From positions 1 to 64,000 of the forward strand of contig NZ_MEFG01000026.1 of NCBI RefSeq assembly GCF_001724715.1: a stretch of 64,000 nt of DNA. Direction: 5' to 3'. The notes beneath the pieces were generated by a model. It searched no databases. It was not told the origin of the DNA and was given only the letters and a program-made list of their open reading frames with translations. This document shows positions 33,653 to 35,042 of this stretch, piece after piece; position 1 is the first letter of the stretch; every line of letters begins with the position of its first letter. Origin of the DNA: Sphingomonas sp. SCN 67-18. GTDB taxonomy: Bacteria > Pseudomonadota > Alphaproteobacteria > Sphingomonadales > Sphingomonadaceae. The translations under genes were made by a program, and so were the position numbers.

Positions 33653-33989
33653 CGTCGATCCTCGCAGGTCGTCCCGAAACCCGGTTGTGCACCGGTGATG
33701 GTAAATGAACCGTAAAGTTGTCGGCCGGGGCCGGGTGGCCGTGCAGCGGGATTTTATTGCGATCGCGTTGTTTCAGTTCAGGACATCGGGCGAGCGGCAG
33801 CGAAACTGGCAAGGGATTCTAAGGACTTGCAGCAGGCTGATCGGCAATAAGACGTTTTTATACAATGCCTTAAGGTTAACGGCACGGATTGCCGAATCAT
33901 TAAGATTTTGGTAAGAAGTGCGCGACTCGAAATTGTAATTCGGGCAAGTGTTTGGGTTCGCACAACATTTTGGGGAAAAGGAAACGACC
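33653..33989 (+). promoter_or_regulatory. AT-rich leader region of the PEP-CTERM gene
   Basis: About 340 bp without a gene and much richer in A/T than its neighbours. A TACAAT box at 33861-33866 preceded by a T-run is the best -10 candidate, but no -35 at a normal distance is convincing. A 5-bp inverted repeat (CGGCA at 33880-33884, TGCCG at 33890-33894) and CGAAATTGTAATTCG near 33929-33943 may be protein-binding sites. The ribosome site GGGGAAAAGGA at about 33973-33983 precedes the ATG. Confidence 0.35.
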
Positions 33990-34664
33990 ATGCTTCGTAA
34001 AGCTTTGGCCGGTGCGCTCGGACTTGCTCTTATGTCCGGCACCGCATTTGCCGCCACTCAGGTATCCTCCACCGACTACGGCCTCGCTGCTCCGGCTGGC
34101 ACCGTGCTCGTCGATTTCAACGGCGGCAACCTGAACGGCTTCACCCTGACGGGGAACTACGCCTTCGTGAACAGCTCGGTCAGCGGCCAGTATGCCGCTC
34201 CGGCCGACAGCCCCACCACGCAGACCACCACCGACTATCTGGTCGTTCCCGGCCAGGGCGTCGATGGTTATGCCGACCTGTGGAGCGCGACCGGCTATCA
34301 GTCCGTCAGCTTCCTGTGGGGTTCGATCGACAATTATAACGATGTCCAGCTGCTCGACGCGGCCGGCAATGTCTTCGGCACCCTGTTCAACGGTGACGAT
34401 CCCAACATCGCTGATCCCAACGCGGATGGCGGCCAGTTTGGTGCGGCCACCAACCGTCGCGTGTTCTTCACGCAGCAGGCTGGCGATCCGCTGATCTACG
34501 GCATCCGCTTCAGCAACCACGGCGCGCGTGCGTTCGAGATCGAGAATGTCGCTTTCGGCGCCGTTCCGGAACCGACGACCTGGGCGATGCTGATCGCGGG
34601 CTTCGGCCTGGTCGGCGGTGCGATGCGTCGTCGCCGCACCAGCACGACGATGGTCACTGCCTGA
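33990..34664 (+). CDS. PEPxxWA-CTERM sorting-domain secreted protein
   Basis: A 224-aa secreted protein. Signal peptide MLRKALAGALGLALMSGTAF with cleavage after FAA. The mature part is polar beta-rich sequence with a concanavalin-like feel (VLVDFNGGNLNGFTLTGNYA). The C terminus is a PEP-CTERM tripartite signal: VPEPTTWAML, a hydrophobic helix (IAGFGLVGGAM) and RRRR. Exosortase-type systems process such tails; no exosortase is in the window. Codon use (GCT, CGT, GGT, AAC) is more biased than in neighbours, consistent with strong expression. A hairpin terminator follows directly. Confidence 0.9.
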   Translation: MLRKALAGALGLALMSGTAFAATQVSSTDYGLAAPAGTVLVDFNGGNLNGFTLTGNYAFVNSSVSGQYAAPADSPTTQTTTDYLVVPGQGVDGYADLWSATGYQSVSFLWGSIDNYNDVQLLDAAGNVFGTLFNGDDPNIADPNADGGQFGAATNRRVFFTQQAGDPLIYGIRFSNHGARAFEIENVAFGAVPEPTTWAMLIAGFGLVGGAMRRRRTSTTMVTA

Positions 34665-34688
34665 TCGTCTGATCGGTTGAAAATGGAG

Positions 34689-34722
34689 AGGGCCGGCCCG
34701 CGAGGGTCGGCCCTTTCCGTTT
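34689..34722 (+). terminator. rho-independent terminator after the PEP-CTERM gene
   Basis: An 11-bp stem (AGGGCCGGCCC at 34689-34699 with GGGTCGGCCCT at 34704-34714; one G-T pair) with a GCGA loop, followed by a short T-rich run. It lies 25 bp after the stop codon. Confidence 0.8.
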
Positions 34723-34733
34723 GGCTGGCGGAC

Positions 34734-34796
34734 ATCTGAGAGCATGTAATCTTTGTCCGCAGCCCTGGCTTTTCTCGCCTGTGCGTCAGTCAGCAT
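34734..34796 (-). pseudogene. remnant of a P4-type tyrosine integrase (first 21 codons only)
   Basis: On the minus strand, ATG at 34796 opens MLTDAQARKARAADKDYM, followed by LSD. This is the N-terminal arm-binding domain (PF13356, DUF4102) of P4/phage-like integrases, which normally continues LSDGGGLYLLV. Here the match stops after the aspartate and the sequence passes into the terminator of the PEP-CTERM gene. It lies 160 bp downstream of the 3' end of tRNA-Tyr and reads in the same direction, the usual arrangement when an island inserts in a tRNA. The remaining ~380 codons are gone, so no active recombinase is made. Confidence 0.75.
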
Positions 34797-34956
34797 GAGG
34801 CCGATACCCACACTCACGTTTCGCTGCCCCCAAAAATACCCCATGAAAGGGGCATCATTGGCCAGACGATCCCGGACAGCATCTGGCAGTGAGTATTGCG
34901 AATCCGCTCTCCGGAAGACGCTTTCGGCGTCTCCCGGACTGCTTCGGCGGAGATTT

Positions 34957-35042
34957 TGGTGGACAGGGCTGGATTCGAACCAGCGTACGCTTTCACGGGC
35001 AGATTTACAGTCTGCTGCCTTTAACCACTCGGCCACCTGTCC
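34957..35042 (-). tRNA. tRNA-Tyr (anticodon GTA)
   Basis: An 86-nt class II tRNA with a long variable arm. Acceptor arms GGACAGG (35042-35036) and CCTGTCC pair perfectly, the anticodon stem GCAGA/TCTGC encloses CTGTAAA with anticodon GTA, and the T arm reads GCTGGTTCGAATCCAGC. The discriminator A at 34960 is followed by an encoded CCA at 34959-34957. An integrase remnant lies just downstream. Confidence 0.97.

Follow-up and report, generated by a model that had tools for sequence, protein, structure and literature searches.

A truncated P4-type integrase beside tRNA-Tyr in Sphingomonas sp. SCN 67-18 as the probable remnant of a degraded genomic island

A stretch of 64,000 nucleotides from Sphingomonas sp. 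SCN 67-18 (contig NZ_MEFG01000026.1, positions 1 to 64,000; "the window") contains an intact tRNA-Tyr gene followed, on the same strand, by a 160 nt leader and by the first 21 codons of a tyrosine integrase. The locus is best explained, with a probability of about 0.9, as the tRNA-proximal remnant of a degraded island, the remainder of which would have been lost by a later deletion or rearrangement, not by excision. The integrase is indicated as P4-type, which we take to be the name for integrases combining the PF13356 arm domain with PF22022 and PF00589. The features of the locus are listed below, with the basis on which each was defined.

33903-33931, minus strand: weak att-like repeat of the tRNA-Tyr 3' end, identical at 21 of 29 positions, with ACCAAAATCT exact (score against shuffled sequences)
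33993-34664, plus strand: gene for a PEP-CTERM protein, bordering the scar (PF07589)
34687-34733, plus strand: junction, with a terminator-like hairpin (34687-34724) of the convergent PEP-CTERM gene (reading of the sequence; no terminator reported here by the consensus scan)
34734-34796, minus strand: P4-type tyrosine integrase, codons 1-21, "the stub" (DNA and protein profiles, codon comparison)
34797-34956, minus strand: putative island leader, 160 nt, attL-like arm and integrase promoter region (GC 0.58; window, 0.68)
34803-34843, minus strand: three G-boxes, TGGGGTA (34843-34837), TGGGGGCA (34832-34825) and TGGGTATC (34810-34803) (alignment of leaders)
34910-34938, minus strand: stem-loop of 12 bp with a 5 nt loop and no T-run, just past the tRNA (z -2.2)
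34957-35042, minus strand: tRNA-Tyr, anticodon gta, CCA encoded, the attachment target (ARAGORN; Rfam RF00005; synteny with an RlmB-like gene in relatives)

The stub peptide, MLTDAQARKARAADKDYMLSD, starts at an ATG at 34796, 160 nt from the tRNA 3' end. Twenty-five tRNA-integrase junctions, none of them from the genome under study, went into a DNA profile; the model is 331 positions long and reaches codon 80. It matches 34849-34733 with E=1.5e-18, the runner-up in the 64 kb window having E=0.13, and the match breaks off at model position 155, which corresponds to codon 21. A second profile, made from the proteins of 18 full integrases and searched against 1243 six-frame segments, has the stub as its sole match (E=0.00017), at model positions 1-21 exactly: these cover the start of the N-terminal arm-binding domain of the P4-type family. 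The next codon of the stub frame encodes a valine, a residue found at this position in none of 27 relatives. The catalytic domain is absent from the locus, which is, judged by these comparisons, an integrase remnant and not an integrase. The first-pass annotation, made by reading the letters, had placed the first 21 codons of a P4-type integrase here, downstream of an intact tRNA-Tyr and ending sharply before the terminator of the neighbouring gene; all of this is borne out, the homology stopping next to the terminator-like hairpin. The ATG of the stub is also the first codon of an open frame of some 300 codons (33900-34796, minus strand), antisense to the PEP-CTERM gene: this is likely an artefact of high GC content, which automatic annotation could call a gene.

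Selection was evaluated by comparing 20 stub codons with the 27 relatives, 25 from other genomes and two from the same genome. Synonymous differences (pS 0.46-1.08) exceed non-synonymous ones (pN 0.07-0.33), so the stub codons would once have belonged to a functional, selected gene. Position 18, lysine in all 27 relatives, is methionine in the stub; the codon pattern and this single change fit a fairly recent loss.

The leader is also recognizable on its own. Together with the stub it has a GC content of 0.565, against 0.679 for the window, and a profile of leaders alone ranks it first in the window (E=0.0014; second match, E=5.3). Leaders at the 25 other junctions are 133-173 nt long, 21 of them 153-160 nt. 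The earlier statement that distance and orientation are those of an island integrase is well supported. When one near-duplicate is removed, the motif TGGGGG is present in 20 of the remaining 24 leaders, against 5.5 expected from shuffled sequences, and its positions cluster near -43, -31 and -11 relative to the start codon. The three G-boxes of the window follow the same order, the second perfect and the first and third degenerate, about 5 nt farther from the start codon. They are probably arm-type sites, by analogy with intS of KplE1, a tRNA-inserted prophage whose attL overlaps the integrase promoter, and whose arm-type sites were tested, according to the available text of PMC2951348. There, as appears to be the case for this leader, the space from the tRNA to the start of the integrase holds both att arm and promoter; the sites of KplE1 are experimental, those proposed here putative.

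The same layout is seen in the members of the family sampled, where P4-type integrases mostly begin 153-160 nt past the tRNA, whichever tRNA it is, with TGGGGG before the start (leaders L124-L151). No description of it was met in a narrow search of open-access literature, as far as the text available for the papers covered (PMC3516476, PMC4383910 and PMC2801613 among them) extends. A consensus scan for promoters and terminators found nothing. The stem-loop just past the tRNA may be a tRNA trailer structure or a piece of the island arm; it was dropped as a candidate conserved element, strong hairpins being present in some, not most, of the other leaders.

Relatives of the stub were searched in 397 genomes of the family, and matches at E<=0.05 were found in 31, including the genome under study. 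For 25 of the 29 loci fetched from other genomes a tRNA gene (Ser, Lys, Leu, Met, Gln or Tyr) lies just upstream; none is shown for the other four (L134, L135, L146, L152). Most of the fetched relatives extend over the full integrase length; in three the homology breaks off early (L125, L148, L151), and among the rest there are frameshifts and truncations at contig ends. In the full ones PF13356 and PF22022 score over the cut-off, PF00589 either weakly or over it. The closest relative, L124, is located at tRNA-Lys and shares 17 of 20 residues with the stub. Wherever it was found in relatives, the 21-codon piece begins an integrase; the first-pass annotation had named its occurrence within a different conserved gene as the contrary case.

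Use of the tRNA-Tyr site was surveyed as well. Pairing of tRNA-Tyr with an RlmB-like methyltransferase is widespread in relatives. The 114 occurrences of the tRNA reduce to 102 distinct ones, of which 97 have at least 600 nt downstream. A tyrosine recombinase is found directly downstream in 14 of the 97. Seven are P4-type (L133, L088, L024, L065, L070, L052, L072), matched from a codon 160-187 nt past the tRNA onwards, a count more fairly given as 6 of 96, L133 having been included for its already known integrase; the other seven, of another type, are weaker matches starting at 205-253 nt. At the thresholds used, a short P4-type stub is found at none of the other tRNA-Tyr loci among the 97. 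No bias towards 5' stubs is claimed, since the query of the survey was the integrase start itself, which favours 5' remnants.

Within the same genome (a draft assembly of 79 contigs), a search with the L124 integrase points to tRNA-linked integrases in graded stages of decay. An intact one of 407 aa is located at tRNA-Gly (contig C14), and another, in a frame of 477 codons, at tRNA-Ser. At tRNA-Leu(cag) the C-terminal part is broken (C12, 145373-146185; L224), a middle stage of decay. A second stub, which has about 92 codons and is interrupted by a stop, begins 157 nt from tRNA-Lys(ttt) (C4, 71697-71969; L002, L225). The tRNA-Tyr stub is recovered by the same search, and one more weak match falls within a 555-codon frame of another integrase. 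The tRNA-Lys stub ends against a convergent transporter-like gene.

The att repeats of the tRNA 3' end, suggested by the first-pass annotation as a check, were not found in the same genome: its sole match to the 25 nt 3' end of tRNA-Tyr, at up to 3 mismatches, is the tRNA itself. Displaced copies were equally absent from the eight genomes searched, this one and the seven with full integrases at tRNA-Tyr. Each gives a single match with 0-1 mismatches, the tRNA-Tyr gene, and seven of the eight add one or two matches with 3 mismatches, which resemble the 3' ends of other tRNAs. Shorter repeats were sought within 6-39 kb downstream of six of the tRNA-Tyr loci with full integrases, and the best exact same-strand ones, of 8-10 nt, are at chance level for tens of kilobases. 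The test has little power, since relatives with an intact locus show no far copy either.

Taken together, these data suggest the following course of events. An island carrying a P4-type tyrosine integrase would have integrated at the 3' end of tRNA-Tyr by recombination. The tRNA would have been restored by the att sequence of the island, and a leader, with arm-type sites and promoter, would have come to lie after it, followed by the integrase gene in the same orientation. Ordinary deletion or rearrangement would then have taken everything from integrase codon 22 as far as the terminator region of the gene now adjacent, while tRNA, leader and 21 codons would have been retained, probably since a deletion into the tRNA would be harmful. 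The first-pass annotation had described the locus as the scar of an excised island: the remnant of a lost island is upheld, excision is not. Site-specific excision would take leader and stub too, so an internal deletion or rearrangement is needed. A precise-excision scar would have the tRNA directly joined to chromosomal sequence, whereas here leader and 21 codons persist. As the genomes searched include no other species of the same genus, the loss itself was not seen.

The two sides of the scar differ. The right side, with tRNA-Tyr, looks ancestral from its gene order, while the left side does not, so that a rearrangement may have taken part. The left neighbours are the PEP-CTERM gene, a gene without Pfam match and a NAD-glutamate dehydrogenase gene; none was seen beside tRNA-Tyr in relatives, at loci reaching 1.5 kb and, for some, up to 8 kb. 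The gene without Pfam match and the dehydrogenase gene are adjacent elsewhere, in all four loci examined and in L219. Homologues of the PEP-CTERM protein are found in 13 of 59 relatives, mostly through the motif alone, and the gene may be either native or the last cargo of the island. It was considered as a shared neighbour and rejected: the homologue near tRNA-Tyr in one relative (G003) sits on the other side, that of the methyltransferase, and is taken as a coincidence. The protein also has 17 matches on several contigs of its own genome, mostly to the C-terminal motif alone.

Two alternatives start from this left side. The stub might mark a chromosomal breakpoint within the integrase gene, produced by an inversion or translocation instead of a simple deletion. 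This is unlikely, though it would account for the absence of the glutamate dehydrogenase block next to tRNA-Tyr in relatives, one of which (G021) has it on another contig, beside tRNA-Thr. Against it, the search with the full relative L124 revealed no orphan P4-type C-terminal piece in the genome, and the PF00589 matches examined there belong either to other integrases or to those already placed at tRNAs; loss of the C-terminal part after the break would still be compatible. Less probable again is a mini-island of 1.05 kb (33903 to 34957), flanked on each side by a decayed att copy and carrying the PEP-CTERM gene as the cargo that remains. The restricted distribution of this gene is in its favour, as is the direct repeat at 33903-33931, just past the gene, whose score is reached by 6 of 300 shuffled sequences and by none of 81 other chunks of the window. 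The repeat is nevertheless doubtful as an att copy and is given little weight, since it was noticed before being tested; moreover, its middle would not make the tRNA-Tyr acceptor stem, and its divergence far exceeds the decay of the stub. It is located in an intergenic stretch of low GC content (0.525).

The remaining alternatives concern the stub and the leader themselves. Chance similarity, or membership of another gene, might be invoked since Pfam by itself assigns no family to the 29-residue piece searched here, and since the reading frame extends for about 300 codons without a stop; against the DNA and protein profile matches and the standard distance from the tRNA this is improbable in the extreme, and the long frame lies on the strand opposite a real gene. 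It is very unlikely, if somewhat less so, that the locus is a retained half attachment site, where tRNA, leader with its G-box arm sites and integrase start would be kept together for binding or attracting integrases of related islands, such as the intact one at tRNA-Gly, or where the leader would be a working tRNA 3' trailer. The tRNA-proximal end of a degraded island is thus the preferred reading.

Similar systems have been described. In the genomic islands collected by Islander, as presented in the available text of PMC4383910, the integrase adjoins a tRNA, and the island restores the 3' end of that tRNA; here, in contrast, 21 codons of the integrase are left and a displaced tRNA fragment is not established. 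The available text of PMC2605562 describes phage remnants of Xylella fastidiosa with integrase fragments at tRNAs, such as pd-r-2, of 407 bp, at tRNA-Val. These resemble the present locus in consisting of a few hundred bases with an integrase fragment by a tRNA, in a different host. As far as that text goes, integrase fragments beside tRNAs are already described as remnants, and the locus is a clean new example, an ordinary genomic scar.

Scars of this kind are missed by protein annotation, Pfam being blind to the tRNA-Tyr stub. In the sampled sphingomonads, the spacing (mostly 153-160 nt) and the G-box layout are usable as a probe for short island scars. The locus would represent a case of island decay proceeding from the cargo side, where the essential tRNA shields the attachment end.
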